Shown here: one piece after another, positions 5,085 to 23,299 of the stretch
Layout: the number at the start of each line of letters is the position of its first letter
How positions within the stretch are numbered: the stretch's first letter is position 1
NCBI RefSeq assembly: GCF_036231945.1
Contig: NZ_CP109599.1
Span: 5,607,501-5,671,500, forward strand
Length of the DNA: 64,000 nucleotides
From: Streptomyces sp. NBC_01429
GTDB taxonomy: Bacteria; Actinomycetota; Actinomycetes; Streptomycetales; Streptomycetaceae
Direction of reading: 5' to 3'
Made by a program: the position numbers and the translations under genes
The notes under the pieces: model-generated
The model's database searches: none
The model's input: only the letters and a program-made list of their open reading frames with translations
What the model was told of the DNA's origin: nothing

Positions 5085-5609
5085 TCAGGAGTAGTCGACC
5101 TCTTCTCCGTCCGGGGCCTGGTAGCACGCTGAGATGACGTTCACAATGAGTTTCGGCTTTCCGTCCTCCCCTTCGCTCTGTTCCCAAAGCTCGACGTTGA
5201 GGCCGAGCTTCTTCTCAGCGTGATCTGCCGTCAACTCAAGCGTTTTGTCGCGGCTTGAATTGGGGCCGTACTGGACGATTTCCCATCCCTCGCCGGGGAG
5301 TTCGCTCTTGAGGCGGCGCATGGCTTTCCCCAGCTCCTCATCGGACGATCCCGTGATACTCCACGGGTGGTACACGGTGAAGAGTCGTCCCGGGTCGGCA
5401 CCTTCGCATGTGGTCACGCCAGGGCCCGGCTCGGAGACCGCTCCCTTCACCGCGATGATGTCGAGGATCCGGCTGGAGGTTTTTTCAGCAGCTGATTTCA
5501 CGTCGTCCACGGCCCGTGTTCCCTCGGGCTTGGGGCTGTTCATGCCGCATCCAGTGAGTGTGAGAGCCAGCGCCACACGGAGTAGTGTGCCGATACCGGG
5601 CCTGTTCAT
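5085..5609 (-). CDS. Putative lipoprotein of unknown function, candidate immunity partner
   Basis: 174 residues. The N-terminus has an Arg, a hydrophobic core and the lipobox LTGC (Cys 21), so it should be exported and lipid-anchored. The mature part is charged and not recognised; it includes SEPGPGVTTCEGADPGR and a second Cys near the C-terminus (VISACYQAPDGEE) that could form a disulfide. Its ATG overlaps the stop of the upstream hydrolase gene by four bases (ATGA), so the two are translationally coupled. Its base composition is clearly lower in G+C than the surroundings: 32 of 60 bases are G or C at 5221-5280. Position and coupling suggest protection from, or work with, the hydrolase (inference). 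Confidence 0.8.
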   Translation of the reverse strand: MNRPGIGTLLRVALALTLTGCGMNSPKPEGTRAVDDVKSAAEKTSSRILDIIAVKGAVSEPGPGVTTCEGADPGRLFTVYHPWSITGSSDEELGKAMRRLKSELPGEGWEIVQYGPNSSRDKTLELTADHAEKKLGLNVELWEQSEGEDGKPKLIVNVISACYQAPDGEEVDYS

Positions 5610-7417
5610 TTGAGTTTCACCTTGCCGTAGGCGCCGACGACAACAGCTGCCTGGTTCTTTAGACTCTCCGAGCCCGGGTTCCAGTAGTCACTGTGCCCGG
5701 ATGTGTTCGTCCCCATCTGATTCGCGCCGAAGATTTCGTCACTGGGGATAATTCCCCTGATCGTCTGCTTGCCCGACGTGTACCCGTCCGGGCCAGACGG
5801 GCGGACGGCGTCGGTCTCCTGTGCGCCACCGTGCCCCCACCGACCGATTTCGGGCACCGGGTCGCCTTCGGCGTCCTCATTCCAAACGTGCCCCTCGGGG
5901 ACGTCCAAATCCGTTGCCCTGCCGACTTGGACGCCCGGACTGCCGGCGAGCACCACGTCGTCGACGTTGAGGTCCCCCTGGCGTGCGGCCGAGCCGATGA
6001 GCGTGGTGCCATAGGAGTGGCCGATGGCTGTGTGATGGCCTCCGGACTCCATGGTGTTCGTGGTGTGGAGGCCACCCATGAACCTGCTGAAGTCCGGCGC
6101 GCCTTCGTTGGCGAAGTGGCTGTCCGGCGAATTCAGGACGATGTTCTGCGGCGCGTCATAGCCGAGCCATGTGACAGTCGAGACATCTCCGGCAGTCATG
6201 GAGTTCGCCTCCCGCCATACTCGGGTCATCCGATTGATGTCCCCCTCGATACCGCTGAGATTCGCCGTTGTGCCCGGCACATACACGGCTGTGTGATCCG
6301 CAGTATCGGGGTTCCCGTTCGCGATGATCGCCCGGCCGTTCCCTTCCGGGCTGAAACCTAGGAGATATGCCTCGGGCATTCCTTTGGCCCCGGTCTGGTC
6401 GAAGCGCTTCTGAATGGAATCCATTCCCTTGAGGGAGGCTTCCAGGTGCGCTTTCCGGTTCTCGTGCTGGTGATGCCAGTCGAGCCATTCGTCCGTGTAT
6501 GCCAACCCATCCAGTCCCAGAGAACGGAACTTCGTGGGCTCCGGGGGGATCGCGGCCAGTTCCAACTGGTACTTGCCACGCGTCACGTCCAGCACCGTCC
6601 GGTTCGCCTCGTCGCGTACCTCGGCCGGTAGGCCGTCCAGGGCGCCCACTTGGGCCGGGAACATGGCGAGGTAGTCGGCCTTCTCCTGGGCCGAGAGGTT
6701 CGTCCACCACTCGGCGTTGTCCTCCGGGCCGCCGTTCTCGGGTGGGGCCGGGATGTCGTTCAGGTAGTGGGAGGCGACGTCGCGGATGTCCTGCATGTCG
6801 TGCGCGGCGTCGGCCCAGTCCGCGTTCGAGACCGTCAGGTCGTCGTCGGCCGTCAGACGGCGCAGGGCCGGTGCCCACTTGCGGTCGGCGGCTGTGGCCT
6901 CCGCCAAAGCCTCGCTGATGAGGTTGGCGCAGGTCTGGGCGTGTCGGAAGTGGGGGTTGGGGTGGAAGGTGCCCGCCTGGCGGGCGATCGCGGAGGCCAC
7001 GTCGTCGGTCAGGCCGCCCGCCGTGCCGCCTTTCGGGCGGTGGCCGTCGGTCTCGTCGCCTGCCGCCGGGTAGCCGACCGAGCCGTCGGGGCCGATGGTG
7101 AACCTTCTGGCAGCGGCGTCCGCGAGGGCCGCGTCCAGTTTTCGCTTGGCCGGCAGGACGTCGGCGGCGAAGGCGCTGAGCCCCGTACTGACCAGACCGC
7201 ATTCGACCTGGATGTAGTGGAAGTTCTTTGTCAGTTCGGCGAGCTGGGCGAGGGCTGCCTCGGCCGCCTCGCCCCTGAGCGATCCGCGCATCGCGGCGGC
7301 GATACCGTTCTCGACCTCGTCCTTGGTCCTGGCGGCCATCGCGCCGGCCGCCCGGTAGCCGTCCGCCGCCTCCTCGTACGCCGAGGGCTTGAGGGAGGTC
7401 AGTGCCGTGAGGTCCAT
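5606..7417 (-). CDS. Two-part protein: helical ESX/LXG-like N-terminus and DUF1023-type alpha/beta hydrolase
   Basis: 603 residues. Residues 1-110 are predicted helical, Ala-rich and without a signal peptide (MDLTALTSLKPSAYEEAADGYRA onward), resembling WXG100/LXG-type export domains. From about residue 330 an alpha/beta hydrolase follows: VYVPGTTANLSG, VTWLGYDAPQN, nucleophile elbow AIGHSYGTTLIGSAA, VVLAGSPGVQVG, NEDAEGDPVPE (acid candidate) and NTSGHSDYWNPGSESL (His candidate), as in DUF1023 hydrolases. Substrate unknown. The N-terminal coding half has ordinary Streptomyces G+C (44 of 60 at 7261-7320), while the C-terminal half is lower, with the change near 6540. It lies nine bases after the small ESX-like gene and overlaps the lipoprotein gene. 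Confidence 0.85.
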   Translation of the reverse strand: MDLTALTSLKPSAYEEAADGYRAAGAMAARTKDEVENGIAAAMRGSLRGEAAEAALAQLAELTKNFHYIQVECGLVSTGLSAFAADVLPAKRKLDAALADAAARRFTIGPDGSVGYPAAGDETDGHRPKGGTAGGLTDDVASAIARQAGTFHPNPHFRHAQTCANLISEALAEATAADRKWAPALRRLTADDDLTVSNADWADAAHDMQDIRDVASHYLNDIPAPPENGGPEDNAEWWTNLSAQEKADYLAMFPAQVGALDGLPAEVRDEANRTVLDVTRGKYQLELAAIPPEPTKFRSLGLDGLAYTDEWLDWHHQHENRKAHLEASLKGMDSIQKRFDQTGAKGMPEAYLLGFSPEGNGRAIIANGNPDTADHTAVYVPGTTANLSGIEGDINRMTRVWREANSMTAGDVSTVTWLGYDAPQNIVLNSPDSHFANEGAPDFSRFMGGLHTTNTMESGGHHTAIGHSYGTTLIGSAARQGDLNVDDVVLAGSPGVQVGRATDLDVPEGHVWNEDAEGDPVPEIGRWGHGGAQETDAVRPSGPDGYTSGKQTIRGIIPSDEIFGANQMGTNTSGHSDYWNPGSESLKNQAAVVVGAYGKVKLK

Positions 7418-7426
7418 CGCCCGGGC

Positions 7427-7885
7427 TCACCGGCCCCCGCCGGAACCGCCCGTGGCGGGAGTGTCCTCGTACGCGATGCCCAGCCGGTCGAAGTCCCGCC
7501 CGACGGCCTTGTCGTCCCCGCGCAGGTCGCTGCCCGCCTTCTTCAACTGCTCCTGGAGTTCGGCCACCCGCCCGGCCACCTTCTCCAGGTAGCCGTCCCA
7601 GGAACGGAAGACCGCGGCCTGGGCCGCCGCGCTCTCCACGCCGCCACCCTTCACGCCGCCGCTTCCCGCGTCAACGGCCCCCGTGCCCAGGGCCTCCTGG
7701 CCCTTCTCCAGTTCGCGCCGGGCTCTGGTGATGCCTCCTTCGAGCCGGCCGACGCCGTTGCCCGCCGCCGTCCACGCCGATCCGGAGGACGTCACGTCGC
7801 CCGAGCCATGCGCACCCACCCCCGCACCCGCACGGACCGCCGCGTCCTGTTTGAGCCGCTCCCACTCCGCCGCAAAAGACGTCAT
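7427..7885 (-). CDS. Small helical protein, WXG100/ESX-like, upstream of hydrolase
   Basis: 152 residues, no signal peptide. It begins MTSFAAEWERLKQDAA and contains AWTAAGNGVGRLEGGI, a WxxxG-like turn, then a long helix with coiled-coil character (GYLEKVAGRVAELQEQLKKAG) and a disordered Gly-rich tail. These features suggest an ESX-type helical hairpin protein or chaperone, but homology is not certain from sequence alone. It is first in a three-gene unit with the hydrolase and the lipoprotein. TAGGGT at 7897-7902 lies 11 bases before the ATG and no Shine-Dalgarno is seen. Confidence 0.75.
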   Translation of the reverse strand: MTSFAAEWERLKQDAAVRAGAGVGAHGSGDVTSSGSAWTAAGNGVGRLEGGITRARRELEKGQEALGTGAVDAGSGGVKGGGVESAAAQAAVFRSWDGYLEKVAGRVAELQEQLKKAGSDLRGDDKAVGRDFDRLGIAYEDTPATGGSGGGR

Positions 7886-7932
7886 GTTCTGGCAACGACC
7901 CTACGTACGCGGGCGTCACGGCGCGTTACGCA

Positions 7933-7970
7933 AAGGCGCCCGGCCGGGGAAGATCCCGGCCGGGCGCCTT
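7933..7970. terminator. Strong terminator after fabF
   Basis: A perfect 16-base-pair stem: AAGGCGCCCGGCCGGG (7933-7948) and its complement (7955-7970), loop GAAGAT. It lies 24 bases past the fabF stop on the same strand and before the start of the 7885 gene, so it separates the two minus-strand units. Confidence 0.85.
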
Positions 7971-7993
7971 CGTGGCGACGGTCTGTCGCGTGC

Positions 7994-16236: not shown

Positions 16237-17451
16237 TCAGAGGGCCCCCAGCGCGTACACCGCGAAGCCCGCCGCCAGCAGCCCGGCCGCCGCGCGGCGG
16301 GCCCGCGCCGCACGCGTCCCCGCCGCCCACGGGCCGTCGAAGGCGCGGGCGTGGCGCCCGATGAGGACGAGCAGGGCGGCGAAGAGCGGCATCCACGTCA
16401 GCCGGGCCACGATCCAGCCGGGCGAGTCGGGCGCCGTGGTCAGCCCGGTCACCGCGCCGCCCAGCGCGGCCCCGGGCACGGCGGCGGCCAGCATCGCCGT
16501 CTGGTGCCAGCACAGGATCGTCATCGCCGACAGATTGACGACGACCACCGGAGCCCACAGCGCGGGCCGCCGCAGCAGGGCCCCGATCCGGTCGCGGAGC
16601 AGGATCGCCGCACCGCTCTGCGCTGCGGCCAGGGCGAGGACCAGCAGCGACGGCGGATGGGAGTTGGTCCGTACCTCGCCGGGCACCCCGACCATCGACG
16701 CCGGATAGTGGAAGACGGCCAGCAGCGCCGCGAACAGCAGCGCGCCGCCGACGAGCAGGGCGCGCGCCTCGCGCCGGCCGACGCGCCCCTCGCCCCAGGC
16801 GACGCCCAGCTGGTACGCGAACAGCCAGCCCGGCAGGATGTTCACCAGGCTCAGCCAGGACGGTACGTCCTGCGCGTACGGCCCGTACCGCAGGAAGTCC
16901 ACCACCGCGACGCTCCCCAGCAGCGGAGCCGCCGCCCAGACCCCCATCCGCCGCGCGGCGCGCACGCAGTACGGGGTCAGCGCGGTCACCCCCACGTACA
17001 CCCCGACGAACCACAGCGGCTGGATCACCAGCGTCGTGCCGGTCCGCAGCGTGGTGCCGGGCACGCCGAGCGCGTACAGCACCGGGAGCAGCACCGCCCA
17101 GACCGCCGTCACCCCGAGCACCGGCCTGCCCAGCCGCACCAGCCGCTGCCGCAGCCAGGCGCCGGTCGTGGACTTCCGGCGGCGGTACGAGAGCACGGAC
17201 GCGTACCCGCCGACCAGGAAGAAGATCCCCAGCATCTGGAGCACCCAGCTGACCGGCGCGAGGCCGCCGAAGGCGGAGAGCGGGCTCGCGTTGCGCAGCG
17301 CGCCGTCCGCGTCGAGGGTGAAGCCGCCGAGCAGCCAGTGCCCGGTGGGCACGGCGAGCAGCGCGAGGGCGCGCAGACCGTCGATCGCGCGGTCGCGGTG
17401 GGCGGGGGTCCGCGCCTCGATCGCCGCGACGGTCGTGGCGAGCGTCGTCAT
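16237..17451 (-). CDS. Acyltransferase 3 family membrane protein
   Basis: 404 residues with about ten hydrophobic segments. RDRAIDGLRALALLAVPTGHWLLGG near the N-terminus is the acyltransferase 3 signature, with the conserved Arg of RAIDGLR and His of GHW. The stretch GIFFLVGGYASVLSYRRRK follows. Such proteins transfer acyl groups across the membrane to surface polysaccharides, peptidoglycan or lipids. Its ATG overlaps the stop of the upstream hydrolase gene (ATGA), so the two are one operon. The hydrolase may act on the same acylated surface material (inference). Confidence 0.88.
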   Translation of the reverse strand: MTTLATTVAAIEARTPAHRDRAIDGLRALALLAVPTGHWLLGGFTLDADGALRNASPLSAFGGLAPVSWVLQMLGIFFLVGGYASVLSYRRRKSTTGAWLRQRLVRLGRPVLGVTAVWAVLLPVLYALGVPGTTLRTGTTLVIQPLWFVGVYVGVTALTPYCVRAARRMGVWAAAPLLGSVAVVDFLRYGPYAQDVPSWLSLVNILPGWLFAYQLGVAWGEGRVGRREARALLVGGALLFAALLAVFHYPASMVGVPGEVRTNSHPPSLLVLALAAAQSGAAILLRDRIGALLRRPALWAPVVVVNLSAMTILCWHQTAMLAAAVPGAALGGAVTGLTTAPDSPGWIVARLTWMPLFAALLVLIGRHARAFDGPWAAGTRAARARRAAAGLLAAGFAVYALGAL

Positions 17452-18611
17452 CGGACGGTCCTTTCCGTCCGGCCCTCAGCGGTGGCCAGGTTCCGGGCGG
17501 TGGCGCGGTCCTGAGCTTTGGCCCGGCCCTGGTCCATGGCCTGGTCCATGGCCTGACCCATGGCCTGACCCATGGCCCGGCCCTGGGCTATGGCGGCGAA
17601 GGCGCGCAGCGAGTCGGTGCCGGGCGCGAAGTAGCCGGTGTGGCCCTGGGCCAGGGAGGCGGGCACCCGGCGGGCGCCGAAACCGGAACCGGCCGGATCG
17701 GCGCCGTGGCCGAGCCCGGCGAACTCGACGTTCGGGACCTTGGAGATCCAGTCGGATTCGTCCTTGGCCGCCCAGACCCGGGCGCCGGTCCGCAGCCCCG
17801 CCACATCACCGGCGCGCATTCCGGGGGAGCCGAACACCACGATGTCGGAGGCGTTCACCTGGTGGGCCGCGAGCCCGCACACCACCGAGCCGTAGCTGTG
17901 GCAGAACAGCACCGGCTCGTGGGCGCCGACCGCCGCGAGCCCCCGGGTGAAGCGGACCAGCCGCCCGGCCCCCGCCTCCGCGAGATCCCCGGTGGCCGCG
18001 TCGAGCCCCACCCCGACCGGGGTCGTGTAGCCGGTCCAGGCGACCACGGCGGTACGGTCGCCGGTCGCGTCCCGCAGCGACGCGGCCATGCCTGCGGGGG
18101 TGCCGTACGGATCCTTCGCACGGTCGAAGGTCGCCGCGTCGATGTCGGCGCCGGGCACGACGACGGACACATGGCGGGCCGTCTCCAAGTCCCCGTACAC
18201 CTCGGCCACTTGACCGCGCCCCCGGGGATCGAAGGCGAGGATGTGCCGGCCGGGAGCCGCGAGCCGTTCGTGGCGCGGGCTGTGCTCGGCGCGGATCGCC
18301 CGCGCGTTGGCCGCGTACCGGAGGGTGACCGGGGCGCCGTCGAGATTGCCGACGACGAGCGGGTGATGCCTTGCCAGGGAGTCTTTCTGACGCACCGTCA
18401 ATTGCCGGAAGAAGGCGGCCACCTGGCCGGGGGACGCGGTGGCCGGATCGGGCAGCGGCCGGCCGAGAGAGGTGTCGGCGCGCCAGGCCGCGCTGCCGGG
18501 CGGCGGCCCGGTCACCGCCCGCTGCGCGGTGCCGGACGCCCAGCCCGCCGTTCCCGCGACCACGGTCGCCGTCAGCGCGGCGGCGGCCAGGGTCCTTCCG
18601 TAACGGCGCAT
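17448..18611 (-). CDS. Secreted alpha/beta hydrolase, DUF1023 family
   Basis: 387 residues from ATG 18611, which follows GGAAGAGGGAGA. A signal peptide spans about residues 1-30 (RRYGRTLAAAALTATVVAGTAGWA). HHPLVVGNLDGAPVTLRYAANA leads into the hydrolase: VVVPGADIDAATFDR, VAWTGYTTP, nucleophile elbow LFCHSYGSVVCGLAAHQV, VVFGSPGMRAGDV, AAKDESDWI (acid candidate) and GHTGYFAPGTDSL (His candidate). The tail has a four-fold repeat of MGQA/MDQA units. It is paralogous to the gene at 22094. Substrate unknown. The 8-2-8 palindrome at 18709 lies upstream and matches the one before the two-component operon. Confidence 0.9.
   Translation of the reverse strand: MRRYGRTLAAAALTATVVAGTAGWASGTAQRAVTGPPPGSAAWRADTSLGRPLPDPATASPGQVAAFFRQLTVRQKDSLARHHPLVVGNLDGAPVTLRYAANARAIRAEHSPRHERLAAPGRHILAFDPRGRGQVAEVYGDLETARHVSVVVPGADIDAATFDRAKDPYGTPAGMAASLRDATGDRTAVVAWTGYTTPVGVGLDAATGDLAEAGAGRLVRFTRGLAAVGAHEPVLFCHSYGSVVCGLAAHQVNASDIVVFGSPGMRAGDVAGLRTGARVWAAKDESDWISKVPNVEFAGLGHGADPAGSGFGARRVPASLAQGHTGYFAPGTDSLRAFAAIAQGRAMGQAMGQAMDQAMDQGRAKAQDRATARNLATAEGRTERTVR
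17531..17578. repeat. Four tandem 12-base repeats inside the hydrolase gene
   Basis: Units GGTCCATGGCCT (twice) and GACCCATGGCCT/C (twice) in direct tandem encode the (M-D/G-Q-A) repeats of the hydrolase C-terminus. In-frame length suggests copy-number change without frameshift. Confidence 0.9.
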
Positions 18612-18708
18612 ACCCGTCTCCCTCTTCCTGCTCGTTCCATGGGGTGGCGAGGAAGAAGGTAAGGAGAGGGTGTGCGGCCGGGCGTCACCCCGAGAAGCCA
18701 ACTGCCCG

Positions 18709-22093: not shown

Positions 22094-23299
22094 TCAGCCC
22101 GCGGCGGTGATGCCGCTCCGGCAGTCAGCGCCGCCATCGGCGCAGCTCACGGCGCGGTACGAGGCGACGCCGATGTCCGCGAAGTTGTCGAGGCTCTCCG
22201 TGCCCGGCTTGAAGTAGCCGGTGTGCCCGACCGCGCCGTATGCCGAGACGACCCGGGCCCCGAAGCCTCTGGCCACCGGGTCGGCGCCGTGTCCGAGGCC
22301 GCCCACCGCGAGATACGGCACGTCCTGGATCCAGTCGTCACCGTCCCGCATGGCCCAGACGTGCGCGGCCGTGCGCAGCTGCGCCGCGTTGCCGACCCGC
22401 ATGCCGGGGCTGCCGGCGACGGCCACGTCGGTGACTCTGGCGGGCAGTGAGTGCGCGGCGACGCCGCACACCACGGAGCCGTAGCTGTGGCAGAAGAGGG
22501 AGACCTCCGACGTGCCCGGCAGCGCGCGGGTGAGCGCGGTGAGCCGTACGGCGCCGTCCTCGGCGAGCTTGCCGATCGCCGCGTCCATGCCGAGCCCGGC
22601 GGGCGAGGTGTAGTCCGCCCAGGCGATGACCGCCGTGGGGGTGCTGGGGGAGACGGCGCGCTCGGCCGCGTACAGCGACTCGGCCATGCCCGCCGGGGCC
22701 GTGTACCAGCCGTCGGACTTCTCGAAGGTCAGGATGTTCGTGTCGACACCGGGCACGACGACCGAGACCCGCTTCGCGCGGTCGAGATCGCCGAGCACCT
22801 CGGCGATCCGGCCGTTGCCCGACGGGTCGAACGAGAGGATCTGCCGGTCGCCGCCGAGCATCGACTCGTAGCGCTGCATGCGCCGGCTCGCCATCAGCCG
22901 GCCGTCGCTCGACAGCCTGCCGTCGTGCGCGCGCTCCTCGTCGGCCTCCCGCGCCTGCATCAGTGCCAGCCGGTTCGCCTGGTAGCGCAGGGTGACCGGG
23001 GCGCCGTTGAGATTGCCGACCACGAGCGGATACTTCGCGGCCAGCCTGGCCTGCTGCGCGGCGTCGAGCGAGGCGAAGAACGCGGCCAACAGCTTCGGCG
23101 GCGCGGTGGGGGACGGCAGGTGGCGTGTGCCTATCCGGCCCTTCTCCCACGCGCTGAGCGCGACTTTCAGCGGCTCGCGCGCGCCGCGGTGGTTCGCCAC
23201 GGCGGTCCAGCCGGTCGTCGTCAGCATCACGAACACCACGGCGAGGGCGAGGACGGCGCGCCAGGCGTTGAGAGTGGGGGATGACTCGAAGGAATTCAC
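22094..23299 (-). CDS. Membrane-anchored alpha/beta hydrolase, DUF1023 family
   Basis: 401 residues. A single hydrophobic segment (RAVLALAVVFVMLTTTGWTAVA, about 14-35) acts as signal or anchor. The body is parallel to the hydrolase at 17448: KYPLVVGNLNGAPVTLRYQANR, VVVPGVDTNILTFEKSDGWY, VIAWADYTSPAGLG, elbow LFCHSYGSVVCGVAAHSL, VAGSPGMRVGNA, RDGDDWIQDVP and GHTGYFKPGTESLDNFA. Four extra features are an insert around SSDGRLMASRRMQRYE and Cys residues in the tail (VSCADGGADCRSG) that may form a disulfide. Substrate unknown. It is a single-gene unit and, unlike the paralog, has no 8-2-8 palindrome upstream. Confidence 0.9.
   Translation of the reverse strand: MNSFESSPTLNAWRAVLALAVVFVMLTTTGWTAVANHRGAREPLKVALSAWEKGRIGTRHLPSPTAPPKLLAAFFASLDAAQQARLAAKYPLVVGNLNGAPVTLRYQANRLALMQAREADEERAHDGRLSSDGRLMASRRMQRYESMLGGDRQILSFDPSGNGRIAEVLGDLDRAKRVSVVVPGVDTNILTFEKSDGWYTAPAGMAESLYAAERAVSPSTPTAVIAWADYTSPAGLGMDAAIGKLAEDGAVRLTALTRALPGTSEVSLFCHSYGSVVCGVAAHSLPARVTDVAVAGSPGMRVGNAAQLRTAAHVWAMRDGDDWIQDVPYLAVGGLGHGADPVARGFGARVVSAYGAVGHTGYFKPGTESLDNFADIGVASYRAVSCADGGADCRSGITAAG

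Follow-up and report, generated by a model that had tools for sequence, protein, structure and literature searches.

A DUF1023 hydrolase, a small helical partner and a lipoprotein form a probable type VII effector-immunity cassette in Streptomyces

The TslA-TilA-TlaA system of Staphylococcus and Listeria combines a lipase toxin of the type VII secretion system (T7SS) T7SSb with a lipoprotein that confers immunity (PMC10730906). Among LXG/WXG polymorphic toxins, an alpha/beta-hydrolase tip with a GHSxG motif, Tox-ABhydrolase3, has already been predicted on WXG toxins (PMC3482391, a paper not found among the full-text matches for DUF1023). In Streptomyces and Amycolatopsis, exported alarmone synthetases linked to T7SS are preceded by the gene of a targeting factor and followed by an immunity gene (PMC12691689). 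The fold of DUF1023, or Abhydrolase_8, was predicted in 2005 (Zheng et al., as cited in PMC11878206); the open-access papers searched do not describe any member of this family as a secreted effector, although earlier descriptions may have escaped this search. A cassette containing a DUF1023 hydrolase is described here. It resides in a window of 64,000 nucleotides, corresponding to positions 5607501-5671500 of the 8.08-Mb chromosome of Streptomyces sp. NBC_01429; coordinates given below are those of the window, unless they are said to be chromosomal or follow a locus number (L). Three genes lie on the minus strand: U (7427-7885, 152 residues), H (5606-7417, 603 residues) and D (5085-5609, 174 residues). 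U and H are separated by 9 bp, and H and D overlap by 4 bp (ATGA). The cassette probably (at a rough probability of 0.7) specifies an antibacterial effector, H, of the Streptomyces type VII (ESX, T7SSa) system, provided with its own export partner, U, and its own immunity protein, D.

The three genes travel together. Full-length homologues of H were collected at 110 Streptomyces loci, the 30 top-ranking ones with 1.5-kb flanks and 80 named ones with 8-kb flanks; since similarity to H guided their choice, distant forms are under-represented, and loci that are related do not count as independent. A homologue of D follows H at all 110 loci and a homologue of U, identified by a profile hidden Markov model of the family, precedes it at 109, in varied surroundings. 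A sequence-only reading of the window had placed the lipoprotein in the position of an immunity gene; the position is constant, and additional or orphan copies of D are found at some loci. Relatives of H are patchily distributed, and often multicopy, among 150 Streptomyces genomes. Decayed-looking copies were also noticed, with H interrupted by a stop around residue 68 or with a split U (L052:7991-9779 and L071:194-698), which suggests the decay of some cassettes.

The C-terminal half of H is a hydrolase, as the same reading had recognized. The Abhydrolase_8 (PF06259, DUF1023) domain spans residues 357-523 (5849-6349), is matched at E 4.9e-33 (114.7 bits against a curated cut-off of 20.5), and agrees with the secondary structure of an AlphaFold (AF2) model of high confidence (pLDDT 92.3). 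Ser468 (6014-6016), found in a GHSYG motif after strand 461-467, is the predicted nucleophile, and is invariant in 108 of 108 sequences; Asp519 (5861-5863), after strand 511-514, is conserved in 107/108, and His575 (5693-5695), after the last strands, in 108/108. Motif, post-strand position and conservation make the three residues a predicted catalytic triad, in which the acid and base roles of Asp519 and His575 are assigned by inference. Motif and conserved residues are those of serine hydrolases. Sequence searches of solved structures gave no significant relative of H, and fold searches matched generic alpha/beta-hydrolases only. PF06259 occurs in just two other proteins of this genome, both encoded within 17 kb of H (17448-18701 and 22094-23299, minus strand) and both featuring an N-terminal signal or membrane segment; 400-residue relatives of the two are present in many Streptomyces genomes.

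The N-terminal part of H (residues 1-290; 6548-7417) has the look of an export block. In the model, helices 11-46 and 50-103 flank a conserved LxG turn, forming a two-helix hairpin like that of WXG100 substrates, and are followed by a second helical region; G49 is invariant (n=108), and the start of the protein does not resemble a signal peptide. An export-like helical N-terminus devoid of signal peptide had been anticipated, and is borne out by the model. Residues 1-208 are homologous to the N-termini of other WXG toxins linked to U (hhalign probability 96.7, E 4e-10). U itself is a small helical, ESX-like protein of a family denoted by the motif DEWEQLK, in which W38 and W96 are invariant. 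It has no Pfam match, and no significant relative among solved structures in the PDB (ESAT-6, E 0.15); a C-terminal YxxxD/E signal was looked for in U, and is not conserved. At 152 residues against about 100, and with a profile score under the cut-off, U is not a member of the WXG100 family proper. Paralogues of U occur between eccC and other WXG toxins; elsewhere in the genus they precede WXG proteins of 485-803 residues, mostly followed by a lipoprotein gene. These proteins make up a large family (L144-L163), with C-termini mostly lacking identification.

Linkage to T7SS genes was assessed by using as queries the EccC, EccB, EccD and mycosin proteins of the ESX locus of this genome. The U-H-D triad lies inside or beside T7SS genes at 15/80 loci with 8-kb flanks and at 6/30 with 1.5-kb flanks, 21/110 in all; about 0.5 of 80 loci would be expected by chance, according to our own estimate. 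At five loci (L035, L041, L047, L088, L090) the triad directly follows eccC, in the order eccC-U-H-D, and precedes the esx pair and the mycosin gene. The suggestion that H may be a type VII-like secreted effector is therefore strengthened by T7SS loci around or next to a share of its homologues. This genome carries a full ESX locus at chromosomal positions 1905134-1926390 (L164/L165). In it, eccC and a paralogue of U are followed by genes for a 748-residue WXG-type protein, a lipoprotein, the two members of a WXG100 pair and a mycosin; eccB- and eccD-like genes lie further on. A different U-toxin-lipoprotein triad (about 1909304-1912373) thus fills the slot from eccC to the esx pair here; its 748-residue toxin-like protein has no Pfam match, and the G+C of its lipoprotein gene is unusually low. 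What looks like the remains of a third cassette linked to U, at about 3934633 (L167), contains a partial U match (residues 80-135), a short open reading frame with WSGVNA and a gene for a lipoprotein similar to the one at the ESX locus.

H is a mosaic. Pairwise distances among 100 non-redundant loci are correlated between U and H 1-280 (r 0.88), as between H 340-603 and D (r 0.85), and poorly between the two parts of H (r 0.39; bootstrap 0.29-0.51). In sliding windows the correlation switches between residues of about 240 and 360, and H is least conserved at residues 290-345 (6383-6550), where the two exchange blocks join. Trees of the single pieces are congruent within blocks and conflicting between blocks; the N-terminal alignment rejects the C-terminal tree and vice versa (log-likelihood differences of 3494 and 3199; approximately unbiased (AU) test p 7e-10 and 0.003, rough values from 1000 replicates). 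Single pairs of loci tell the same. L033 and L069 share 0.80 in both the N-block and U, yet 0.35 in the C-block and 0.21 in D; L018 and L100 share 0.76 in the C-block versus 0.41 in the N-block. In the cassette of the window, the N-block is nearest to that of L107 (N 0.70, C 0.50), the C-block to that of L005 (C 0.72, N 0.54). U and H(1-280), and H(340-603) and D, are thus two co-inherited blocks.

The base composition changes at the same place. The counts that had drawn attention to the locus are exact (44/60 G+C at 7261-7320, 32/60 at 5221-5280), and the change seen inside the hydrolase near 6540 falls close to the best change-point of G+C at third codon positions (GC3), found at codon 297 (6526; 0.91 to 0.77, permutation p<=0.001). 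G+C measures 0.73 in U, 0.71 in H 1-292, 0.62 in the remainder of H and 0.61 in D, against a window mean of 0.714, and 5085-6540 is the lowest in G+C among all 1.4-kb stretches of the window; the lipoprotein does share low G+C, as well as coupling, with the hydrolase. Of 100 non-redundant homologues, 93 show a drop in GC3 from the N- to the C-terminal part (Wilcoxon p 1.4e-16), and wherever a step is clear its direction is down, with a median position of 300. Import of a low-G+C tip into this strain was considered as the cause of the step, and is ruled out by its recurrence across the family; hence the low G+C does not speak for a recent event in this strain. As the GC3 change-point coincides with the junction of the co-varying blocks, the composition break is a genuine exchange boundary, recurrent in the family. 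It is very improbable that the blocks reflect two domains under differing constraints, and that the C-terminal half owes its low G+C to a composition effect in a protein that was never exchanged: the recurrence of low GC3 would fit this view, but differing constraints alter rates, not topologies, and both the mutual rejection of the trees and the sharp mismatches in the locus pairs above run counter to it. 

What is exchanged is as a rule another allele of the same hydrolase. The sequence-only reading had expected a conserved stretch of 110 residues followed by variable C-termini. The C-terminus and the lipoprotein were found to be exchanged jointly, at the G+C break; the conserved export part is longer, about 280-290 residues, and substitution by an unrelated toxin is not the usual outcome. 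Within H, conservation is highest in the hydrolase. A nuclease tip is present in one relative. In a plasmid of S. decoyicus (NZ_CP108348.1, L245:5236-7253) an ESX-like small protein precedes a 428-residue protein which matches positions 4-290 of the N-block profile (E 7e-42), retains the first hydrolase strands, and terminates with Tox-REase-2 (E 2.2e-9). The downstream gene encodes a soluble protein of 125 residues, with no signal peptide. A soluble neighbour for a cytoplasmic nuclease, and a lipoprotein neighbour for the hydrolase, are as expected if the downstream immunity protein acts where the toxin acts. H thus combines traits of T7SS polymorphic (WXG/LXG) toxins, namely the hairpin with a W/LxG turn, the missing signal peptide, the partner gene and the T7SS linkage, with the exchange of its tip along with a presumed immunity gene.

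D carries a lipobox (LTGC), with the lipobox Cys conserved in 107/108 sequences and two more Cys in 105/108. Its model is of good quality (pLDDT 87.6). No Pfam family is matched at E<=0.1, and sequence searches of solved structures gave no significant relative. Matches in fold searches are weak (SciW, DcrB, LpqN, TplEi; best E 0.003). Given these, and the generic fold matches of H, neither a substrate nor an immunity fold is claimed. Lipoproteins of other U-linked toxins have no detectable homology to D, as alignments are confined to the signal peptide. More than one D match was found at 8 loci of the 110. Tandem D genes occur at L027, L043 and L112; at L040 (10428-11242) and L075 (13460-14358, minus strand) an orphan tail of H, corresponding to the last 50-70 residues, is followed by an extra D. 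Such tails with further D genes are the remnants expected from displaced effector-immunity tips.

The main rival explanation retains H as an envelope hydrolase exported by T7SS, and views D as a dedicated activator, foldase or membrane anchor, comparable to lipase-specific foldases. The presence of D at every locus and its co-variation with the hydrolase block are expected for any obligate partner, and the translational coupling of H and D fits too. Still, extra and orphan D genes, some next to a mere C-terminal remnant of H, are hard to reconcile with it, as are tandem lipoproteins at the distant locus L233, the soluble protein replacing the lipoprotein downstream of the S. decoyicus nuclease tip, and the patchy, accessory distribution of the cassette. 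Both the orphan and tandem copies of D and the tip swap favour immunity over an activator or foldase role, which is regarded as rather unlikely.

Several observations weigh against reading the cassette as an antibacterial T7SS effector with an immunity protein. The similarity of U to WXG100/ESAT-6 proteins is weak (TIGR03930, 13.3 bits against a cut-off of 44.85), and so is the direct match of H to the WXG100 profile (E 0.012). The cassette of this genome lies about 3.7 Mb away from the ESX locus. That H is always paired with D, and varies along with it, would also be compatible with an activator or chaperone. C-termini belong nearly always to the same hydrolase family, so that diversity is allelic, and does not extend to many toxin types; the N-block of H was not found at Tox-REase-2 loci of the 150 Streptomyces genomes, which makes replacement by a nuclease rare. 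The Streptomyces T7SS has been linked to development, and H might be exported to serve the development of the producer, in remodelling of wall or lipids, or be directed to eukaryotic neighbours rather than to bacterial competitors. Beside that link, the presence of DUF1023 in the two Sec-type or membrane proteins of the window, seemingly conserved in the genus, speaks for such a role. Housekeeping enzymes would not usually be encoded in accessory cassettes that recombine, occur in several copies and include paired lipoproteins, and this explanation is deemed improbable, even more so than that of D as an activator.

H is most likely an envelope esterase or lipase, and D a lipoprotein immunity protein. 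For an antibacterial effector we infer the following course of events. U and the WXG-like hairpin of H would pair, creating an export signal read by EccC, and H would be exported through the T7SS. Outside the cytoplasm of neighbouring cells the DUF1023 hydrolase, by means of Ser468-Asp519-His575, may attack an ester, probably in a lipid or another component of the envelope. D, attached to the membrane and exposed on its outer face, would bind the hydrolase domain, and shield producer and kin from toxicity.

The cassette adjoins, on the same strand, the fatty-acid synthase genes fabD-fabH-acpP-fabF. A strong hairpin (7929-7972, minus strand; -47.8 kcal/mol, z -6.0) is located 3' of fabF, between this operon and the cassette; it is not listed by the consensus terminator scan because it lacks a long T run, and promoter and terminator consensus scans of the locus gave nothing informative. 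The closest of the sampled relatives (FabF 91% identical) has no cassette at this site: fabF, an oxidoreductase gene and a DUF3145 gene are adjacent, the first two separated by about 100 bp. In another species (G029) the same site is occupied by another U and WXG-toxin cassette. The fabF-DUF3145 gap there (L227:1664-5123) hosts a different U, a 485-residue WXG protein and two more genes. Since a different cassette fills the site in G029, T7SS cassettes may land there repeatedly.

These data provide a testable function for DUF1023, a lipoprotein family and a small partner family, found together at hundreds of Streptomyces loci, and point to an antibacterial role of the actinobacterial T7SS, which is poorly understood in Streptomyces. 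The co-inherited hydrolase-lipoprotein block names a candidate interacting pair, and the slot between eccC and esxBA offers a simple rule to find more effectors. Lipoproteins follow the hydrolase also in distant members of the class, one to three in number (L231-L233, L237, L238), and a plasmid of Mycolicibacterium carries an EspC-like gene ahead of the genes for a WXG100 plus Abhydrolase_8 protein and a lipoprotein. It is a tentative proposal, more doubtful than the one made for the Streptomyces cassette, that type VII systems of actinobacteria widely use DUF1023 as a toxin tip, and that adjacent lipoproteins, those of mycobacteria included, are immunity proteins. If true, many hypothetical lipoproteins would belong to an interbacterial conflict system based on T7SSa, mainly known for host interaction.

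Among known systems, the alarmone synthetases share with the cassette the actinobacterial T7SS and the order targeting factor, effector, immunity gene; they differ in the toxin domain, and lipoproteins are not mentioned in their description (PMC12691689). LXG/WXG toxins have in common with it a helical N-terminal export domain, an exchangeable C-terminal tip and an adjacent immunity gene, but Tox-ABhydrolase3 is related to lipases of the 1lgy type and paired with Imm66/Imm69 (PMC3482391), whereas the partner here is a different protein, a lipoprotein. TslA-TilA-TlaA is similar in featuring a lipase-type T7SS effector, one or more genes for small helical partners, and lipoprotein immunity outside the membrane. 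In TslA the lipase is N-terminal and the helical domain C-terminal, whereas H has the canonical, reverse order; DUF576 lipoproteins and the T7SSb of Bacillota characterize the former system, a DUF1023 hydrolase and an actinobacterial T7SSa host the latter. Domain order, and a lipoprotein that matches neither DUF576 nor any other Pfam family, set the cassette apart from the TslA family; by analogy, it most likely works like staphylococcal TslA-TilA, yet outside that family.
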